NCBI RefSeq assembly: GCF_014204415.1
Contig: NZ_JACHLE010000001.1
Coordinates: forward strand, 558,001 to 622,000
DNA from: Chryseobacterium defluvii
GTDB taxonomy: Bacteria; Bacteroidota; Bacteroidia; Flavobacteriales; Weeksellaceae
DNA length: 64,000 bases
Direction: 5' to 3'
Positions 4,701 through 63,196 of the stretch are shown here, piece by piece. The position numbers and the translations under genes are program-made. How positions within the stretch are numbered: the first letter of the stretch is position 1; each line of letters begins with the position of its first letter. Under the pieces are notes generated by a model. The model was not told the origin of the DNA. It was given only the letters and a program-made list of their open reading frames with translations, and did not search any database.

Positions 4701-4858
4701 AGCACTAGTTTTAAAATTTGTACTTAAAGATAATAAATAATTTTCAATTATGTTGAAAATATTTTAATAAAATTAGTTATTTTTTATTTCATCTATAATG
4801 TTATAGGGTGTGTTCGAAATTATCTATTAATTACTTTTTAGCATTGAATAATTTATAT

Positions 4859-5087
4859 TCTCGCAGATTTGGCAGATGACACAAATGATGATATTAATAA
4901 AAAGTCTGTTTAAATGCGACTTAAGGCGCTGGAATTTTTTTACCATTAAGGAATTAAGCTTACTAATCTGCTTATGAATTGTTTAAGAAATCAATATATG
5001 GATTTCAAAAACATTTAAAATATCTTAATTCCTTAATAGTATATAAATTTTTCAAAAAGATCTGCGTAATCTGCTAAATCTGAGAGA
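4859..5087. repeat. Long imperfect inverted-repeat element in a gene-free gap
   Basis: The 405-bp gap 4701-5105 holds no gene. Within it, an outer pair of arms (4859-4886 beginning TCTCGCAGATTTGGCAGAT; 5059-5087 ending GCTAAATCTGAGAGA) and an inner pair (ATTAAGGAATTAAG near 4945-4958; CTTAATTCCTTAAT near 5023-5037) are reverse complements with few mismatches. The arrangement is a nested palindrome of about 230 bp, of the kind found as dispersed noncoding elements in Chryseobacterium-type genomes. It lies just after the 3' end of acs and could fold into a long hairpin there. Confidence 0.6.
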
Positions 5088-20337: not shown

Positions 20338-23300
20338 ATGGCAAAACGTACAGATATAAAAACAATTTTAGTGATCGGAAGCGGTCCTATCATCATCGGG
20401 CAGGCAGCAGAATTCGATTACGCAGGAACACAGGCCTGCTTATCCTTAAAAGAAGAGGGATACAGGGTTATTCTGATCAACTCCAATCCTGCAACCATCA
20501 TGACGGATGTTGAGATTGCAGATAAAGTATATATAGAACCTATTTCCCTTCAGTTTGTAAGTCATATCATCAGAAAAGAACGTCCGGATGCACTTTTACC
20601 TACCCTTGGAGGCCAGACAGGTCTGAATATGGCTGTAGAATTGGAAAAATCGGGAATCCTGGATGAATGTAAAGTGGAAGTACTGGGAACAAAGCTTTCA
20701 GCGATCAACAGGGCGGAAGACAGAGATCTTTTCCGTGAACTGATGCGCGAACTGAACGAGCCGGTTCCGGAGTCCGATATTGTAAACACTGTAGCAGGAG
20801 CCCTTGCTTTTGCAGATAGGATCGGTTATCCTGTAATTGTACGTCCTGCCTTTACGATGGGTGGCACGGGAGGTGGTATTGCTTCTAACGAAACAGAATT
20901 AAAAGAGATCGCCGAATTGGGACTGAAACACAGTCCGGTTACCCAATGCCTGATTGAAAAGTCAATTGCCGGTTTCAAAGAAATAGAATACGAAGTAATG
21001 CGTGATGCCAACGACAACGCGATTGTGGTTTGTAACATGGAGAATATAGACCCTGTGGGAGTTCATACCGGTGACTCTATCGTAGTTGCGCCTTCCCAGA
21101 CGCTTTCAGACAGAGAATACCAATTATTGAGAAATGCTTCCCTAAAAATTATCAGAGCATTGGGAATCGAAGGAGGCTGTAACGTGCAGCTGGCTTTAGA
21201 CCCACACTCATTCAATTACTATGTGATCGAGGTAAACCCTAGGGTTTCCCGTTCATCAGCACTGGCCAGTAAGGCAACCGGATATCCGATCGCGAAAATT
21301 GCTGCTAAAATTGCCGTAGGACTAACGTTGGATGAGATCATGAATCCGGTGACAGGTAAAACCTATGCCTGCTTTGAGCCCGCGTTAGATTATGTAGTAA
21401 CTAAATTTCCGAGATTCCCGTTTGATAAATTCGAAACAGCAGACAGAAGGCTTTCCACCCAAATGAAAGCAACGGGAGAAGTAATGGCGATCGGAAGAAG
21501 CTTCGAGGAATCTTTACAGAAAGCGATCAGGTCTTTAGAGACCGGGATCAGGCATTTGGGATTAAAAACCAAACAGGCCTTAGCACTCACAGATGAAGAA
21601 ATAGAAAGAAGGATCAGGATTTGCGATGATGAAAGACTATTCATCATAGGCGATGCTTTAAGAAGAGGATATGATTGGGAACAAATCGTAGAATGGAGTA
21701 CAATTGATAAATTCTTTATCTGGAAGCTGAAGAAATTAATTGATTTCGAAAAAACTATTACTGAAAATAAATTCGATAAAGGAACTTTGATCCAGGCTAA
21801 AAAATTAGGATTTGGAGATATCAATATTGCAGTTCTGTGGGAAGTAACTGAGCGGGAAGTTTTCAATTTCAGAAAAGAAAACGGAATAATGCCGGTTTAT
21901 AAAATGGTAGACACTTGTGCGGCAGAATTTGAAAGTGAAACTCCATATTTTTACGGAACCTATGAAGAAGAAAATGAAAGCATGGTTTCAGACAAGGAAA
22001 AGATCATCGTTTTAGGCTCCGGGCCCATCAGGATCGGGCAGGGAGTTGAATTCGACTATGCCACGGTTCATTCGGTTTGGGCGATCAAAGAAATGGGTTA
22101 TGAAGCAATCATTATCAACAATAACCCCGAAACTGTTTCCACAGACTTCTCGATCTCTGATAAATTATACTTCGAACCATTGACGGAGGAAGATGTAATG
22201 AACATTATCGAGCTTGAAAAGCCGAAAGGAGTAGTTGTTCAGTTCGGAGGACAGACGGCTATCAACTTAGCAGATAAATTAGCATCCCATGGTGTTCAGA
22301 TCTTAGGGACTTCACTGGAAGACCTGGACAGGGCTGAGAACAGGGATAAATTTGAAAAAGCCCTTCAGGAACTTGGAATTCCTCAACCGAAAGGAAAAAC
22401 ATCCACCTCCAAAGAGGAAGCGATAAAAATTGCCAATGAGATCGGGTATCCGGTTTTGGTACGTCCGAGCTACGTTTTAGGAGGAAGAGCCATGGAAATT
22501 GTCTACACGGAAACAGAACTGGCCCACTACATGGAAAATGCAGTGGAAGCAAGCCCGGAACATCCTGTACTGGTGGATAAATATATGGTGGGAAAAGAAG
22601 TGGAGATCGACGCCATCTGTGACGGGGAAACAGTAGTGATTCCGGGAATTATGGAGCACATCGAAAGAGCAGGGGTTCACTCCGGAGACTCTATTGCCGT
22701 ATATCCGCCACAGAATATCTCACAAAAAGAGATCGAAACATTAGTTGAATATACCAAAAGACTGGCACAAGGCCTGAAAGTGATCGGGTTGATGAATATC
22801 CAATACGTCCTTTTTGAAGGCAATGTGTATGTGATCGAAGTCAATCCGCGTTCATCGAGAACCGTACCTTTCTTATCCAAAATTACAAATGTCCCGATGG
22901 CCAATCTGGCAACAAAAGCCATTCTGGGACAAAAACTGAAAGATCTGGGCTATGAGAACGGATTGGTACCTAATAAAGAAGGTGTATTTGTAAAAGTTCC
23001 AGTATTCTCATTCTCAAAACTTACGAAGGTTGATATCTCTCTGGGGCCTGAAATGAAATCTACAGGTGAGGTAATGGGGAAAGATACCACTCTGGAAAAA
23101 GCATTATATAAAGGGCTGATAGCAGCAGGAAGAAAAGTTCCGATGCACGGTTCTATTTTGTTTACGGTTGCCGATAAACATAAGCAGGAAGCGGCTGATC
23201 TGGCATCAAGATTTCATGAAGTAGGCTTCAGGATCTGGGCAACGGAAGGAACAGCCAAATTCTTTGAAAGTAAAGGAATTCCCTGTAAAATAGGATATAA

Positions 23301-37655: not shown

Positions 37656-37740
37656 GGAGAGTTGGCAGAGTGGTCGATTGCGGCAGTCTTGAAAACTGTT
37701 GACTGTAACAGGTCCGGGGGTTCGAATCCCTCACTCTCCG
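37656..37740 (+). tRNA. tRNA-Ser(UGA), copy 1
   Basis: 85 nt with the long variable arm of class II tRNAs. The acceptor stem GGAGAGT pairs with ACTCTCC (37733-37739), the anticodon TGA lies in CAGTCTTGAAAACTG, and the T-loop is GGTTCGAATCC. The 3' CCA is not encoded. The gene is identical to the one at 60394. Confidence 0.97.
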
Positions 37741-41619: not shown

Positions 41620-43362
41620 ATGGAAAATAAGTTCTTAAATTTTAAGTTGAGGAAGATTGTTCATTATTCATTGATCGCTTGTATCCTGCTGATACAGGTT
41701 ATTATAGCCATATTTTTTTATAATGAATTTACCAATAAGAAGAAACTGAAGTTTATTGAGAATCAGCTGGAGGAAAGCCGGGCATTGGAAGGCCTGACCG
41801 ATAGTTCGAGGAAAGATTTTATGGATGCGCAGAATTACCTTCAAAAATACATGATAAGCCAGAATCCCAAAGATCTGGATTTATACTTTCAGTCTCTCAG
41901 GAAGCTAAATAATAATTTTGATAAAATAAATGATTATGGAGATACGGCTCCAAAACTTAAAAATAATCTGGATCGGCAAAAAAAAGATACCCTGAAGATT
42001 GTAAAATTGGAAACTATCATAGATTCTGTACATCAATACTCTCTGAACCCGCCTGCAAAAAACCAGGATCAGCATTTTGAGCTGAAAAAATACAAGAATA
42101 ATGATAATTTTGATGACCTGAATATCAATATACAAACCCAGACCTACTCTGATACGGTCAAGAAGAAAGGGCTGATGGGGCGCTTAAAAGATGCCATATC
42201 CGGAAAAGTGGAAGTACAAAAAGAAAGTACCGTTATTACGCTGACCAATAATAAAAAAGCAGAGATTTCTGAAAAGGTAAAATCAAGGATGGACAGTCTG
42301 GTAGGGCTAATGAATAAGTACTATATGACTGAAGTCAAGAAGATTCAATTATCAACAGTCAAAAATGAAAAGGACAATAAACAGTTTTACGGAAATTTCA
42401 GTAAATTGTTGATCTATAGCAACGGACTGATCAATGTATATGAAAATGCGATTAAAGACTTTAAATCAGAACTGGAAAAAGAGCACGAAAAACAAAATTC
42501 AAGAAATAACAGGATCAGGACCTGGCTGGTACTGGGGCTAATGAGCCTGATGTTTATTGTATCAATTCTCATTATGTATTTTACGAGAGTCGCATTCATC
42601 TACGAATGGAAACTTAATGCCGCAAACAAGGAGATCAAGAACAACCTTAATTTCAAAAACAGGATATTGGGAATGCTGAGCCACGAATTAAGGTCTCCCT
42701 TAAAGATCATAAATATTTTTATTGATAAGATCAGCAGAACTACCAAAGATGAAACCATAAAAGATTACCTTAAATCCATCAAGTTTACCAATAGTACCCT
42801 GCTTATACAATCTAATCAGATCTTGGAATATACGAAAAACCAGGAAGCGGATAAAAAGCTTATACCAACGGTCTTTAATCTTAAAGATGAGGTCAACGCT
42901 ATTGTGACGGCTATTACACCTTACATAGAAACCAGAAATAATAAGTTTGTGGTAAGAGACATGATTCCTGCGGATACGGTAGTGCATTCGGACAATATAA
43001 AAATGAACCAGATATTTATGAACATTCTGGGAAATGCCAATAAGTTCACGGAAAACGGGCAGATAGCCCTTACCATGACTACCGAACAAAAAGGCAAGAA
43101 TATAATTTCCCTTACCACTACAGTGGAGGACACCGGAGTGGGAATATCCGAGTCTGACCTGAAGAAAATTTTTGAGCCGTATTATCAGGGATTGGTTTCC
43201 GACGAGATTGATAACGTGGGTGCCGGTCTGGGGCTTAACTTATGTAAGGAAATTGTAGAACTTTTTGATGGCATTATATCAGTTTCGAGCAAGCTGCACA
43301 AAGGGACAAAAGTGACATTCAGTATCAATTTAAATATCAGTAATAATGGAACTACCAATTGA
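41620..43362 (+). CDS. Sensor histidine kinase
   Basis: 580 residues. A first membrane helix (about 14-34) and a second (about 302-321) enclose a 270-residue sensor region, rich in Lys and Asp and predicted helical. A HisKA domain follows with His355 in LSHELRSPLKI, and then a HATPase domain with NILGNANKF and GAGLGLNLCKEI. No PAS or HAMP domain is recognisable. The gene overlaps the following response-regulator gene by 17 bp, so they form a pair. The input signal is unknown. The tandem noncoding array starts about 50 bp after this pair. Confidence 0.93.
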   Translation: MENKFLNFKLRKIVHYSLIACILLIQVIIAIFFYNEFTNKKKLKFIENQLEESRALEGLTDSSRKDFMDAQNYLQKYMISQNPKDLDLYFQSLRKLNNNFDKINDYGDTAPKLKNNLDRQKKDTLKIVKLETIIDSVHQYSLNPPAKNQDQHFELKKYKNNDNFDDLNINIQTQTYSDTVKKKGLMGRLKDAISGKVEVQKESTVITLTNNKKAEISEKVKSRMDSLVGLMNKYYMTEVKKIQLSTVKNEKDNKQFYGNFSKLLIYSNGLINVYENAIKDFKSELEKEHEKQNSRNNRIRTWLVLGLMSLMFIVSILIMYFTRVAFIYEWKLNAANKEIKNNLNFKNRILGMLSHELRSPLKIINIFIDKISRTTKDETIKDYLKSIKFTNSTLLIQSNQILEYTKNQEADKKLIPTVFNLKDEVNAIVTAITPYIETRNNKFVVRDMIPADTVVHSDNIKMNQIFMNILGNANKFTENGQIALTMTTEQKGKNIISLTTTVEDTGVGISESDLKKIFEPYYQGLVSDEIDNVGAGLGLNLCKEIVELFDGIISVSSKLHKGTKVTFSINLNISNNGTTN

Positions 43363-43999
43363 AAATAGAGAGATTACATTTCTTTTAGCGGATGATCACA
43401 GCATGGTACGGCAGGGAATGGCGATCACTGTCAGTGAAGTCGTTCCCGATGCCAGGATCTATCATACTTCATCCTTACAGCAGGTAGTAGAGATGGTGAG
43501 GTCAAATGGAGTAGAGATCGTTATCATTGATGCGCATTTTCCGGACGGAAACAGTTTGCATATTTTACCACAGATCAAAAGTGTGAATCCCGATATTAAA
43601 ATTTTAATTTTCTCAGGACTGGAAGAGCATCTGCACGCACTCAAATATATCAATGCCGGTGCCAATGGATATCTGAGCAAGCTGAGTGAAGAAGAGGAGG
43701 TAAGGCAGGCTGTTTCAGACATCATCCATAAGGGAGAGTATATTTCTGCCGTTTCGCGGAGCTTATTGGTGCAGTTTGCCTACGATCCGAACTCAATCAA
43801 CCCTCTTAATTATTTGACCAAAAGAGAGCTGCAGATCGCGGAAATGTATGCGGAAGGATACGGGAACCTGGAAATTGCAAATCATTTGGATATAAAGCAG
43901 AATACGGTAAGTACAATCAAAAAAAACATCTTTGAAAAATTAAAGATAGAAAACCTTGTTGAGCTGATTGACCTTATCAAAACCCATCACAAAATATAG
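43346..43999 (+). CDS. LuxR/NarL-type response regulator
   Basis: 217 residues. The receiver domain (about 10-130) has ADDH at 15-18, the phospho-acceptor Asp62 in IIDAHFPDG and the Lys in GYLSKLS. The C-terminal helix-turn-helix (about 150-215) is of the LuxR/NarL type: LTKRELQIAEMYAEGYGNLEIANHL...TVSTIKKNIFEKL. It overlaps the kinase gene by 17 bp. Regulators of this class bind short sites as dimers. Two repeated 12-bp sites 22 bp apart occur upstream of each of four tandem units beginning 50 bp downstream, and are the natural candidates for its targets. Confidence 0.94.
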   Translation: MELPIENREITFLLADDHSMVRQGMAITVSEVVPDARIYHTSSLQQVVEMVRSNGVEIVIIDAHFPDGNSLHILPQIKSVNPDIKILIFSGLEEHLHALKYINAGANGYLSKLSEEEEVRQAVSDIIHKGEYISAVSRSLLVQFAYDPNSINPLNYLTKRELQIAEMYAEGYGNLEIANHLDIKQNTVSTIKKNIFEKLKIENLVELIDLIKTHHKI

Positions 44000-44045: not shown

Positions 44046-44123
44046 ATCGATAAATATCTACGTTTTTATCGATATATATCTATGTGGATTTCTCAAAATT
44101 CTATTTCAGATGTTGTTACTTTG
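44046..44123 (+). promoter_or_regulatory. Unit 1: paired regulator sites and -7 box
   Basis: ATCGATAAATATCTA at 44046-44060 and ATCGATATATATCTA at 44068-44082 are direct repeats 22 bp apart (two helical turns). The box TTACTTTG (44116-44123), one mismatch from TAnnTTTG, begins 45 bp after the start of the second GATA core. No -33 TTTG is found at the expected spacing, which fits a promoter that needs an activator. Confidence 0.6.
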
Positions 44124-44127
44124 CACC

Positions 44128-44407
44128 AACAAAATTTACCGATAAAAAACACAAATGAATTGAAAATGCTTCTTAGCTTTTTAGTTTCCAAATAAATAAG
44201 GTAAATGATGTTTGGCTATAAATTATAGCTATTTTAAACAAGTGATGAAAATTTATATCGAGGTGTATGTAATAATCTTTAACCGGCTTCTTAAAAACTG
44301 ATTTATTAAAAAACACAAATATACATAAAGAAGTGAAATTGGTCTTTTCAGGTTATTTTAAAAACACAGAAAAAAATCCACAACTACAAAAGGTTGTGGA
44401 TTTTTAT
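44128..44407 (+). ncRNA. Candidate small RNA, unit 1
   Basis: A transcript of about 280 nt is predicted from the promoter-like box at 44116 to an intrinsic terminator at 44371-44407. The terminator stem is AAATCCACAAC paired with GTTGTGGATTT, followed by T-rich sequence. The RNA contains a small hairpin in GGCTATAAATTATAGC. A frame beginning ATG CTT CTT AGC is only nine codons long and is absent in this form from the other units, so a peptide product is not supported. Promoter and terminator positions are inferred by eye. Confidence 0.6.
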
Positions 44408-44420
44408 TTAGAAGTTTGCC

Positions 44421-44495
44421 GATAAATATCTAGGCTTCTATCGATATATATCTGTGCGGATTTCTCAAAATTCCACTTTGGATGTTGTTACTTTG
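44421..44495 (+). promoter_or_regulatory. Unit 2: paired regulator sites and -7 box
   Basis: GATAAATATCTA at 44421 and GATATATATCTG at 44443 (22 bp apart) precede TTACTTTG at 44488-44495, again 45 bp after the second core. Confidence 0.6.
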
Positions 44496-44499
44496 TACC

Positions 44500-44766
44500 A
44501 ACAAAATTTACCATTCAAAAAACACAAATGAATTGAAAATGTCTACGGCTTTTTAGTTTTATAATAAAAAAGGTAAATAATGTCAGGCTCTGCTTATAAC
44601 TGCTTTAAACAAATGATGAAAAATTTATATTAAGGTGTATGTCTAACCATTAACCTGCTTCTTGAAAGCTAAAAAAATACAAAACTGTAAAGAAGTAAAA
44701 TTGGTTTTAGGTTATTTTAAAAACACAGAAAAAAAATCCACAGCTCAAAAGGCTGTGGATTTTTAC
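44500..44766 (+). ncRNA. Candidate small RNA, unit 2
   Basis: About 267 nt from the TTACTTTGTACC box to the terminator at 44731-44766. The stem AATCCACAGC pairs with GCTGTGGATT; the C/G change relative to unit 1 (CACAAC/GTTGTG) is compensatory, which favours a functional RNA hairpin. The body is co-linear with unit 1 apart from small indels. Confidence 0.6.
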
Positions 44767-44780
44767 TTAACAGTTATCTA

Positions 44781-44855
44781 GATAAATATCTACGCTTTGA
44801 TCGATATATATCTATGCGGATTTTTCAAAATTCCACTTTGGATGTTGTTACTTTG
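44781..44855 (+). promoter_or_regulatory. Unit 3: paired regulator sites and -7 box
   Basis: GATAAATATCTA at 44781 and GATATATATCTA at 44803 (22 bp apart), then TTACTTTG at 44848-44855, 45 bp after the second core. Confidence 0.6.
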
Positions 44856-44859
44856 TACC

Positions 44860-45127
44860 AACAAAATTTACCATTCAAAAAACACGAATGAATTGAAAAT
44901 GTCTTAATGGCTTTTTAGTTTTATAAAGAAGGTAAATAGTGCTAGGCTATAATTATAGCTGCTTTAAACAAGTGATGAAAATTTATATCGAGGTGTATGT
45001 TTAACCATTAACCGGCTTCTTGAAAGCTAAAAAAACACAAAAACTATATAAAGAAGTAAAATTGGTTTTTTAGGTTATTTTAAAACACAGAAAAAAAATC
45101 CACAGCTCAAAAGGTTGTGGATTTTAC
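44860..45127 (+). ncRNA. Candidate small RNA, unit 3
   Basis: About 268 nt from the TTACTTTG box to a terminator at about 45094-45127. The stem pairs CCACAGC with GTTGTGG, using one G-U pair where unit 2 has G-C, which again keeps the hairpin. The internal hairpin GGCTATAATTATAGC is nearly perfect in this copy. The short frame after ATG TCT stops at once (TAA), so no peptide is made here. Confidence 0.6.
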
Positions 45128-45141
45128 TTAGTAGTTATATC

Positions 45142-45216
45142 GATAAATATCTACGTTTTGATCGATATATATCTATGTGGATTTCTCAAAATTCCATTTT
45201 GGATGTTGTTACTTTG
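45142..45216 (+). promoter_or_regulatory. Unit 4: paired regulator sites and -7 box
   Basis: GATAAATATCTA at 45142 and GATATATATCTA at 45164 (22 bp apart), then TTACTTTG at 45209-45216, 45 bp after the second core. Confidence 0.6.
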
Positions 45217-45220
45217 TACT

Positions 45221-45486
45221 AACAAAATTTACCATTCAAAAAACACAAATGAATTGAAAATGTCTTATGGCTTTTTAGTTTTATAAAAAAGGTAAATGAT
45301 GCCAGGCTATGATTATAGCTGCTTTAAACAAGTGATGAAAATTTATATCGAGGTGTATGTTTAACCATTAACCAGCTTCTTGAAAGCTAAAAAAACACAA
45401 AAACTATATAAAGAAGTAAAATTGGTTTTTAGGTTATTTTAAAACACAGAAAAAAATCCATAACTCAAAAGGTTATGGATTTTTAC
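45221..45486 (+). ncRNA. Candidate small RNA, unit 4
   Basis: About 266 nt from the TTACTTTG box to a terminator at 45451-45486 with the stem CCATAAC/GTTATGG. Both sides changed together compared with unit 1 (CCACAAC/GTTGTGG), a true compensatory pair. The body is closest to unit 3. It is followed by about 430 bp of AT-rich DNA before the next gene, with no fifth unit. Confidence 0.6.
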
Positions 45487-57724: not shown

Positions 57725-58285
57725 ATCATAACCAGATTCAATAATTCGTCAGAAAAAGTAAGATCATTATCAGAATGGATGTAAAAATAAGCTGTAATTT
57801 ATTGATAATCATTTTTTTACTCAATATTTATTCGGAAAATATTACATATAGTATTTTTATTTATATTAATAAACTCGTTTCTTTGTAGAAGAAATATCTA
57901 GGATAGATTTAGTTCAAGTTCCCAACTAAGCAGAAATTTATCCAAAATCAGGTGGCTCATGTGCATTCTAAAAACACAAATGATGGAGAATAATATTACA
58001 GCTGAGATTTTTAATATCCCTTATCAGGGGGTAATGTCATATTTCTTTTTGTTTTCAATTATTCTTTTTTCAGAACTGAATGAAAAAGCCGGAAGGTTTT
58101 TGGCTTTCATGTAGCTGTATATCTAATAAATTTAAAGATAATGATGAAACAAATACAGACAATTCAATTGTTGGTGTCTTTGTTCAGTCCTTACTCATGT
58201 AGGCAGGTTGATAATGGGGATAATAGTTGGTAACAACTTCCTGTCAATATAAAAACCGTAGTTTTTAATACAATTTATCTAAAAA
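57725..58285. other. Mostly noncoding AT-rich gap
   Basis: Apart from the doubtful 44-codon frame at 57980, nothing coding is seen. No clear terminator or repeat element is visible. Confidence 0.4.
57980..58114 (+). CDS. Possible 44-aa hydrophobic small protein
   Basis: ATG ATG GAG AAT (57980) opens a 44-codon frame ending at TAG 58112-58114. The product would begin MMENNITAEIFNIPYQG and contain a hydrophobic segment (VMSYFFLFSIILF), followed by a charged end. Small membrane peptides of this size exist, but there is no conservation evidence and no promoter box, so this is only a candidate. Confidence 0.2.
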   Translation: MMENNITAEIFNIPYQGVMSYFFLFSIILFSELNEKAGRFLAFM

Positions 58286-60393: not shown

Positions 60394-60478
60394 GGAGAGT
60401 TGGCAGAGTGGTCGATTGCGGCAGTCTTGAAAACTGTTGACTGTAACAGGTCCGGGGGTTCGAATCCCTCACTCTCCG
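60394..60478 (+). tRNA. tRNA-Ser(UGA), copy 2
   Basis: 85 nt, identical in every base to the gene at 37656, with the same anticodon TGA, acceptor stem GGAGAGT/ACTCTCC and class II variable arm. The 3' CCA is not encoded. The downstream sequence differs from that of copy 1. Confidence 0.97.
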
Positions 60479-60943: not shown

Positions 60944-60978
60944 GAAAAATCCACAACCTTTACGCTGTGGATTTTTAC
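60944..60978 (+). terminator. Hairpin terminator resembling the sRNA-array terminators
   Basis: AAAAATCCACAAC and GCTGTGGATTTTT pair (one mismatched or wobble position) around CTTTAC and end in TTTACTA. The stem is close to AAAAATCCACAGC/GCTGTGGATTTTTAC in the array at 44.4-45.5 kb. It ends the small exported-protein gene. Confidence 0.65.
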
Positions 60979-61939: not shown

Positions 61940-63196
61940 ATGAAAATAGATTTTACAACAGCTACATTTAAGGATTTTGAAAATATCCAGGGTTATGATA
62001 TGATGCAACGTGCCGATATTTATTACGACTTTTTAGATTATATGAAGTCTAACGGACATAATTACAGGTTGAGAAACAATTCAGCCTGTGGCTCTGTGAT
62101 CAATGTCAGTGCTGAAAAAGCAACCAAAGATTATATAAGCTATGTAACCAGTGATTATCTGGGCTTTACCCAGCACCCTAAGGTAAAACAGGCTGCTATA
62201 GAAGGGATAGAAAAATACGGGACGGGAACAGCAGCTACTCCGCTTATTGGGGGATATTACTTATTTCACAATGATCTGGAAAAAACAATAGCGTCTTTCT
62301 TTGGCAGAAGCCAGGAAGAAGCTGTGGTCTTTACTACAGGATATACTGCAAATAGTGCTACATTGCAGATCCTTTTGCAAAAAGAAGATATTGCGATTGT
62401 GGATATGGCAGTACACGCGAGCGTATATGAGGGATGTATTCTTACCAACAGAAAAACATTCCCACATAATAATCTGGAAGCCCTGGAAACTATTTTAAAA
62501 GCTTCGGAACATCAGTATCGTACCAAGCTTGTGATCATAGACGGGGTATATTCTCAAGATGGAGATGTTGCACCTGTAAAAGAAATTCATGATTTGGTAA
62601 GAAAATACAATGCTTACCTGATGGTGGATGATGTGCATGGAGTGGGGATTTTAGGGAAAACAGGGAGAGGAACTCTGGAAGATCCCGGACTGCTGGATAA
62701 AGTAGATATCATTACCGGGACATTCAGTAAAACTTTCGGAAATCTGGGAGGATATGTGATCACGGATAAGAAGCTGGCTACCTTTATCAGGTTTCAGTCA
62801 CGCCAGCAGATATTTTCTGCAACAGCGCCTCCTTCCTCTACAGGAATTATAAAAGCGATTGAATTAATAGACGAAGAACCCCAGTGGCGTACCAAACTGT
62901 GGGACAATATAAACTATTTCAAAAAAGGGTTGAATGATTTGGGGCTGGAAACAGGAACTAGCTGTTCTGCAGTCATTCCGGTAAAAATTGGAGATCCCCA
63001 TGTAACAGGTGATGTAGGAAAACTACTTATAGAAAAAGGGATTTATACCAACCCGATCATATATCCTGCGGTAGCAAGAAAAGATGCACGCATCAGGATG
63101 TCTATAATGGCAACCCATGAAAAAGAACATCTTGATAAAACGTTAAATGCATTTGAAGATATCAATAATAAATTGCATATTGCAAAAAAATATTAA
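61940..63196 (+). CDS. PLP-dependent alpha-oxoamine synthase family protein
   Basis: 418 residues, the length of this family (8-amino-7-oxononanoate synthase, serine palmitoyltransferase, KBL, CqsA). Lys264 in TGTFSKTFGNLGGY should bind PLP, Asp230-Asp-Val-His in MVDDVHGVG is the PLP-ring contact. The canonical glycine-rich GTG-SGGS/GSCG-R motif is replaced by KYGTGTAATPLIGGYYLFHNDLE. The substrate therefore may not be that of the textbook members. A sphingoid-base or other long-chain amino-ketone role is possible, as is an alpha-hydroxyketone signal synthase. A TetR regulator starts 2 bp downstream, so the two form an operon. Confidence 0.85.
   Translation: MKIDFTTATFKDFENIQGYDMMQRADIYYDFLDYMKSNGHNYRLRNNSACGSVINVSAEKATKDYISYVTSDYLGFTQHPKVKQAAIEGIEKYGTGTAATPLIGGYYLFHNDLEKTIASFFGRSQEEAVVFTTGYTANSATLQILLQKEDIAIVDMAVHASVYEGCILTNRKTFPHNNLEALETILKASEHQYRTKLVIIDGVYSQDGDVAPVKEIHDLVRKYNAYLMVDDVHGVGILGKTGRGTLEDPGLLDKVDIITGTFSKTFGNLGGYVITDKKLATFIRFQSRQQIFSATAPPSSTGIIKAIELIDEEPQWRTKLWDNINYFKKGLNDLGLETGTSCSAVIPVKIGDPHVTGDVGKLLIEKGIYTNPIIYPAVARKDARIRMSIMATHEKEHLDKTLNAFEDINNKLHIAKKY

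Follow-up and report, generated by a model that had tools for sequence, protein, structure and literature searches.

The stretch of DNA that follows a two-component gene pair of Chryseobacterium defluvii raises the question of what a series of similar repeats, none of which seems to encode a protein, may do for the signalling system that precedes it. The window, i.e. the whole stretch of 64,000 nucleotides that was analyzed, corresponds to G000:C1:558001-622000 of a 3.87-Mb genome. Between positions 44046 and 45486 it contains four direct-repeat units in tandem, of approximately 360 bp each, which lie immediately 3' of the kinase and regulator genes (Table 1). A first-pass annotation, made from the sequence alone, had described four tandem units with a promoter box, a body and a terminator, and this description was borne out: the units start 372, 360 and 361 nt apart, have a mean identity of 88% per column and share one order, i.e. 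an operator, the box TTACTTTG as promoter, and then approximately 270 nt of non-coding body with a terminator hairpin at its end. A fifth, shorter copy is located on another contig (G000:C5:53126-53213, L005).

Table 1. Features of the array and its neighbourhood, and the seed sRNA genes discussed in the text. Positions are those of the window unless a contig is named.
Feature	Position	Strand	Basis and remarks
Histidine kinase (HisKA, HATPase_c)	41620..43362	+	Pfam
Response regulator, receiver and LuxR/GerE HTH, NarL/FixJ type	43346..43999	+	Pfam; closest solved sequence NarL 1a04, E 1.2e-19
Unit 1 operator, two palindromic sites	44046..44084	+	sequence, unit alignment; genome-wide search of downstream site
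Unit 1 promoter box TTACTTTG	44116..44123	+	sequence, unit alignment
Unit 1 RNA and terminator	44126..44411, ends approximate	+	best predicted decoy sites 44145-44164, 44232-44251, 44309-44328
Unit 2 operator	44418..44456	+	sequence, unit alignment, genome-wide site search
Unit 2 promoter box	44488..44495	+	sequence
Unit 2 RNA and terminator	44498..44768, ends approximate	+	best predicted decoy sites 44518-44537, 44603-44622
Unit 3 operator	44778..44816	+	sequence, unit alignment, genome-wide site search
Unit 3 promoter box	44848..44855	+	sequence
Unit 3 RNA and terminator	44858..45128, ends approximate	+	best predicted decoy sites 44878-44897, 44962-44981
Unit 4 operator	45139..45177	+	sequence, unit alignment, genome-wide site search
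Unit 4 promoter box	45209..45216	+	sequence
Unit 4 RNA and terminator	45219..45486, ends approximate	+	best predicted decoy sites 45239-45258, 45322-45341; terminator scan
Six putative seed sRNA genes, dispersed, own genome	G000:C1:507547, C1:865384, C1:1494109, C1:1774076, C5:141649, C8:57057		loci L217, L219, L220, L221, L225, L226

Each of the four units is closed by a hairpin followed by Ts. Unit 4 was the only one listed by a strict terminator scan of the + strand; units 1, 2 and 4 were listed on the - strand as well, because the terminator stems are near-symmetric, and unit 3 was absent from the scan on either strand. The paired changes in these stems, from which selection on RNA structure had been deduced earlier, do occur as described, with the third copy as a G-U intermediate (CCACAGC/GTTGTGG). 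For the body, such changes in a terminator stem tell little.

The unit bodies have no reading frame in common, which agrees with the first reading of the sequence: the indels between copies measure 1, 2, 3 and 7 nt, and the short peptides that start from ATGAAA differ between the copies. No conserved peptide was found in related copies either, as the peptides also differ across species. A Rfam search of the window at the gathering threshold gave no family besides two tRNAs, so that here too the earlier reading, which had recognized no known RNA family, was upheld; at E<=5 there were 17 sub-threshold matches. Searches of several stretches, at the gathering threshold and at relaxed ones, yielded two tRNAs per stretch of genome and, apart from these, chance-like matches only. 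The tRNA matches of the window (37656-37740 and 60394-60478) have an equal score of 56.6 bits and flank the array region, and locus L067 likewise has an equal-scoring tRNA pair. At positions 60946-60976 there is a solitary hairpin, AAAAATCCACAACCTTTACGCTGTGGATTTTT, which resembles the array terminators and has no unit attached.

A DNA search with one unit gave matches in 23 of 99 genomes, its own included, all belonging to one genus. From relatives, this search brought 28 loci (L009-L036); in 25 of them the RNA has a homolog of the regulator or the kinase as its neighbour, and L013, L017 and L019 are dispersed RNA copies without an adjoining regulator. The covariance-model search proposed in the first-pass annotation was carried out with a model of the 3' domain only (27 sequences, 12 pairs). 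Its 27-segment alignment was drawn from 35 pattern hits; one of these was spurious, inside a kinase gene, and was omitted together with L005, L028, several near-duplicates and those units that had no clear end. At E<=0.01 the model matched 97 of the 173 genomes of the genus, including the window genome, and a count from the match list gave 15 genomes with two to four tandem matches.

The helices of the body covary across species. Both sides are changed in 7 of the 12 pairs, 20 cells of the 12-pair body model show a double-sided change, compared with 5.7 in shuffles, and 96.9% of the cells are paired, compared with 31-55% when the partners are slid. This covariation of the body is real. A cross-species motif, AAAAACACAAAUGAUGAAA, is degenerate in the array of the window, whereas other genomes have as many as 8 exact cores per kb. 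Distant relatives have lost the 3' domain and kept or multiplied the motif: a different body holds copies of AAAACACAAATGATGAAA, and 8 exact [A/G]CACAAATGATGA and 11 AA[A/G]TGATGA lie within 1 kb in G300, where well under one would be expected. An assignment of UGAUGA to a box C/D (kink-turn) was considered and rejected, since inspection by eye showed no conserved CUGA partner.

The nearest named relatives of the regulator are those of C. defluvii (84%) and C. daecheongense (82%). Each operator site is, as judged by eye, a 7-2-7 inverted repeat, and such repeats would suit dimers of a NarL-type regulator. Of 79 named loci (80 were taken, and L130 ran off the contig end), 64 have the operator and promoter 3' of the regulator gene. 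With a looser pattern, the two-site operator was present in 113 of 123 loci (L067-L129 and L156-L215); 63 of these loci were named, and the other 60 were chosen as regulator-positive, from other genera or without a model match, and are thus not a random sample. In Chryseobacterium, Elizabethkingia and Epilithonimonas the order is the same, i.e. regulator gene, operator, non-coding RNA. The site starts are 21 bp apart in 111 of the 113 operator loci (the finder accepted 18-23); among the 10 loci negative by the looser pattern, L093, L095, L118 and L122 are positive by the pattern used for the 79 loci. In the whole window genome, the downstream operator site at <=1 mismatch occurs only in front of the four units and the fifth copy, and therefore the visible regulon of the regulator appears to be these RNAs. 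The array is probably transcribed under the control of the regulator bound at the predicted operator. These results support the idea that a group of regulatory RNAs, multicopy and so far undescribed, stands beside a signalling pair, and they tie it to this pair more firmly than the first-pass annotation could see.

The motif AAAAACACAAAUGAUGAAA has its reverse complement in the seed of another, putative family of multicopy sRNAs. In the window genome CACAAATGATGA has 10 exact matches, all outside the array, where each site deviates by one mismatch; when one mismatch is allowed, there are 72 sites, compared with 20 for the reversed pattern. Six of the 10 exact matches are the opposite strand of genes in which TTTTTTTTCATCATTTGTGTTTTT is immediately followed by a terminator hairpin. 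These putative seed sRNA genes are built of a short 5' part, UUUUCAUCAUUUGUGUUUUU and a terminator; TTTTTTTTCATCATTTGTGTTTTT is common to all six of them and the terminators differ. The 20-nt seed TTTTCATCATTTGTGTTTTT was found, at <=1 mismatch, in 173 of the 173 genomes of the genus, with 2-15 matches each (the reversed control gave 2 in total). Six of the 7 seed matches of the window genome are sRNA-like genes. Across the family the seed is present in 251 of 296 genomes and 24 of 33 genera. In an order-wide sample it was found in 51 of 296 genomes, with exact matches confined to the family of the window; the five matches outside this family are single and carry one mismatch, and the reversed pattern has seven there. 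All of these genome counts include some array sites and opposite-strand mRNA start regions.

A hairpin with a T-tail was found at all 51 distinct seed loci, i.e. the six own and others from relatives, and a promoter-like box, sought with a crude pattern, at 30 of the 51. The sequences upstream fall into several recurrent types, such as TTTGTGGCTCGAAATAAT and one with a hairpin. Rfam at E<=1 gave only chance-like matches for the six own loci, and a search of phage and plasmid collections with the seed sRNA gave no match. As seeds are also present in genomes of the genus without a close regulator, e.g. G124, G151 and G172, the seed family is independent of the array RNAs, which we consider below as its sponge. 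A seed match lies approximately 8-11 kb from the regulator gene in G106, G107, G028, G122, G131, G035, G203, G201 and G009; none of the six seed genes of the window genome is linked to this gene.

Distant regulator homologs (L347-L365) present other arrangements. At several of these loci (e.g. L352 of G220, L354 of G356 and L364 of G321), a similar operator stands in front of a membrane-protein-like gene in place of a decoy RNA; the gene behind the operator at L352 has a glycosyltransferase 2 domain. Five genomes of the genus g36 have a regulator homolog and lack the seed at one mismatch; here, too, there is a similar operator, but the gene behind it is another one (in G220 that with the glycosyltransferase 2 domain), and the 620 nt read show no decoy RNA. 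Other distant loci are mixed: several g52 genomes are similar to g36, G240 has a decoy-like RNA, and no operator was seen by eye at three g38 loci.

Among 113 operator-bearing transcripts, the longest exact complement of the seed reached at least 12 nt in 94, at least 14 nt in 62, at least 16 nt in 37 and at least 20 nt in 7. With the reversed seed, none of the same 113 transcripts reached 12 nt, and so none reached 14. The corresponding values were 1.6% and 0.2% (about 1) for Markov sequences (n=565), and 1.2% and 0.2% (about 1) for permuted-core seeds (n=580). By these comparisons, the predicted complementarity of the array RNA to the sRNA seed exceeds chance. The longest exact stretches in units 1-4 of the window are 14, 15, 9 and 14 nt, and that of the fifth copy is 12 nt; this degeneracy of the window's own sites counts against reading them as decoys.

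The predicted duplexes of the units with the seed have energies of -19.4 to -19.7 kcal/mol, which no more than 1 of 300 shuffles equalled, and the fifth copy is weak (-14.4; 19 of 300 shuffles as good). When co-folded with the full seed sRNA, the four units gave -14.9 to -22.1 and the fifth copy -14.2; for none of the five did any of 60 shuffles come as low. The corresponding value is at most -11.8 for 60 sampled A-rich segments of the window outside the array. By plain duplex energy, the segments 57861-58190, 62811-63140, 4731-5060 and 22441-22770, some of which may be among the 60 sampled ones, equal or beat the array. The best-scoring duplex segment of the window contains AAAAACACAAATGATGGAG (57970-57990), a near-perfect seed complement upstream of a 44-aa frame, which is possibly an mRNA target or a remnant. 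Lenient sites (16 of 20 with wobble) number 3.76 per transcript, compared with 1.31 in Markov sequences and 1.24 with the reversed seed; at least one was found in 112 of the 113 transcripts and none in the remaining one, a count that does not discriminate, because the reversed seed reaches 74 of 113. The predicted openness of the sites is only marginally higher (0.57 versus 0.49, 33 transcripts). Substitutions within the motif do not clearly preserve wobble pairing, as A to G is common and G to A is too. In G106 and G107 the decoy has drifted and the seed is unchanged, so no compensatory change was found in these two genomes.

Based on these observations, we suggest that the array RNAs are a target-mimic sponge for the seed sRNA family and serve as output of the two-component system next to them, a reading to which we give a probability of about 0.7. 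As the body carries a motif complementary to the seed of a second sRNA family, the array RNAs would be decoy-like rather than sRNAs acting on mRNAs. The elements of such a circuit can be read from the DNA, i.e. the kinase-regulator pair, an operator and box per unit, the partly structured non-coding body with its terminator, the conserved order and the complementarity to the seed; transcription, binding of the regulator and pairing of the array RNA with the seed sRNA are predicted from them. A signal would cause the kinase to phosphorylate the regulator, which would then bind the two palindromes and switch on the four units and the dispersed fifth copy. The resulting RNAs would bear several mimics of the start region AAAAACACAAAUGAUGAAA, the putative pairing site of the seed sRNAs on mRNAs. 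The seed sRNAs themselves would pair at A-rich AUGAUGAAA start regions and block initiation, and mRNAs beginning ACAAAUGAUGAAA are their predicted targets. By titrating the sibling sRNAs, perhaps with degradation, the decoys would derepress these mRNAs. With decoys for a whole small-RNA family, the bacterium could probably shut that family off by decoy synthesis.

The surroundings of 70 of the 72 one-mismatch motif sites of the window genome were inspected, and candidate targets with the motif at the start codon were noted at L224, L233, L240, L245, L312, L320 and L342. The predicted duplexes at L224, L240, L245, L312 and L320 range from -15.9 to -25.8 kcal/mol, compared with -29.1 for a perfect target. 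An A-rich, motif-like context is also a normal start context in this phylum, and the listed genes are therefore candidates only.

The repeats could instead titrate a protein. The repeated ACACAAAUGAUGA, located partly in hairpin loops, would in that case bind an RNA-binding protein, e.g. an RRM protein. A short motif whose copy number varies within the transcript, gene copies that are both tandem and dispersed, two-component control and an RRM protein encoded in the genome would all suit such a function. However, the motif matches, as its reverse complement, the seed of an independent and family-wide set of sRNAs, far above controls, and the GGA signature is missing: each of the four units has one GGA, and since this sole GGA sits in the terminator stem, the Rsm/Csr signature is absent. 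We regard a protein sponge as unlikely. In its CsrB-like form it had served as the working model and was given up when 6 of the 10 exact motif matches turned out to be seed sRNA genes read from the other strand. A single protein may also bind both the array RNA and the seed sRNA. The only RRM_1 match in the genome is a 121-aa frame at G000:C1:712357-712560 (L216), whose product might be the protein partner if the case is analogous to that of RbpB, discussed below.

A 3' domain that is structured and conserved in 97 of the 173 genomes of the genus exceeds the needs of a bare decoy, and would be expected if the array RNAs were ordinary sRNAs or seed targets, kept low by the seed sRNAs and acting by way of a different element, e.g. 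the conserved AAAAAACACAAA loop in this domain. Nevertheless, the distant relatives without the 3' domain have retained or multiplied the motif, which makes this reading distinctly improbable. That the units are an mRNA array for small peptides is hardly credible: short ATG-ATG-AAA frames are present in them, but the peptides are unlike between copies and between species, the gaps between copies are not multiples of three, and the helices covary.

Two-component systems with a titrating RNA as output are represented by GacS/GacA with RsmX/Y/Z and by CbrA/CbrB with CrcZ. RsmY/Z titrate CsrA and CrcZ titrates Hfq; GacA is a NarL/FixJ-type regulator, and crcZ lies directly behind its regulator gene. 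The array resembles these systems in that its RNA is a predicted titrating output, its regulator is of the same type as GacA and its genes stand behind the regulator gene, as in the case of crcZ. It differs from them in the predicted titrated partner, an sRNA family rather than CsrA or Hfq. Unlike RsmX/Y/Z and CsrB, the array has no GGA repeats, and its regulator scores 97.8 bits with the UvrY/SirA/GacA model, below the cut-off of 280 bits. The kinship to Rsm- or Qrr-type RNAs that the first-pass annotation had entertained is not supported.

Closer parallels are found among sRNA sponges. CrfA of Caulobacter is reported to be a sponge of the sibling sRNAs SisA-D (PMC12559287), QrrX, as cited in the same report, is a sponge of the Qrr sRNAs, and others have been reviewed (PMC8383071). 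Like CrfA and QrrX, the array RNA is a separate transcript complementary to a common seed, which would inactivate sibling sRNAs by what is here predicted pairing. CrfA is Hfq-linked, and PMC12559287 describes its transcriptional control as undetermined, whereas the array has a linked two-component system and an operator in front. As far as these sources describe CrfA and QrrX, the array also differs from them in its tandem genes, in its repeated decoy sites per transcript and in the phylum. New with respect to these sponges are thus a putative two-component control that is both linked and dedicated, genes in tandem, amplified decoy sites and the phylum.

The seed sRNAs, in turn, resemble the FopS sRNAs of Bacteroides thetaiotaomicron, which are described as acting at start codons and as being antagonized by the protein RbpB (PMC11697453): they are multicopy, with a single-stranded seed ahead of the terminator and complementarity to start-codon regions. 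FopS is antagonized by a protein, whereas the seed sRNAs here are apparently antagonized by RNA, and the array RNA itself is not FopS-like. No FopS-family match was found in the six own seed loci with Rfam at E<=1, in a copy of Rfam that possibly contains no FopS model. Rfp18 of Flavobacterium psychrophilum, described as a conserved regulatory RNA (PMC9723704), comes from the same order; it can be likened to the array by its description only, and exact seed matches occur only in the family of the window. A full-text search of open-licence PMC found no paper on an sRNA sponge in Bacteroidota, no paper on a Riemerella anatipestifer sRNA with a Northern blot, and, among the matches listed, nothing on the present array or seed family.

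Taken more broadly, we consider it somewhat probable that the array belongs to a family-wide circuit of the Weeksellaceae, in which a two-component system has a repeat-amplified target mimic as its dedicated output and titrates a near-invariant, start-codon-targeting sRNA family, i.e. the logic of Gac-Rsm with an RNA in place of the protein. If this is true, both halves of a post-transcriptional switch would be named in Chryseobacterium, Elizabethkingia and Epilithonimonas, and the presence of the 20-nt seed in every one of the 173 genomes of the genus predicts a directly testable regulon. Taken with FopS, it would also point to families of seed sRNAs, each with an antagonist, as a more general theme of the phylum.
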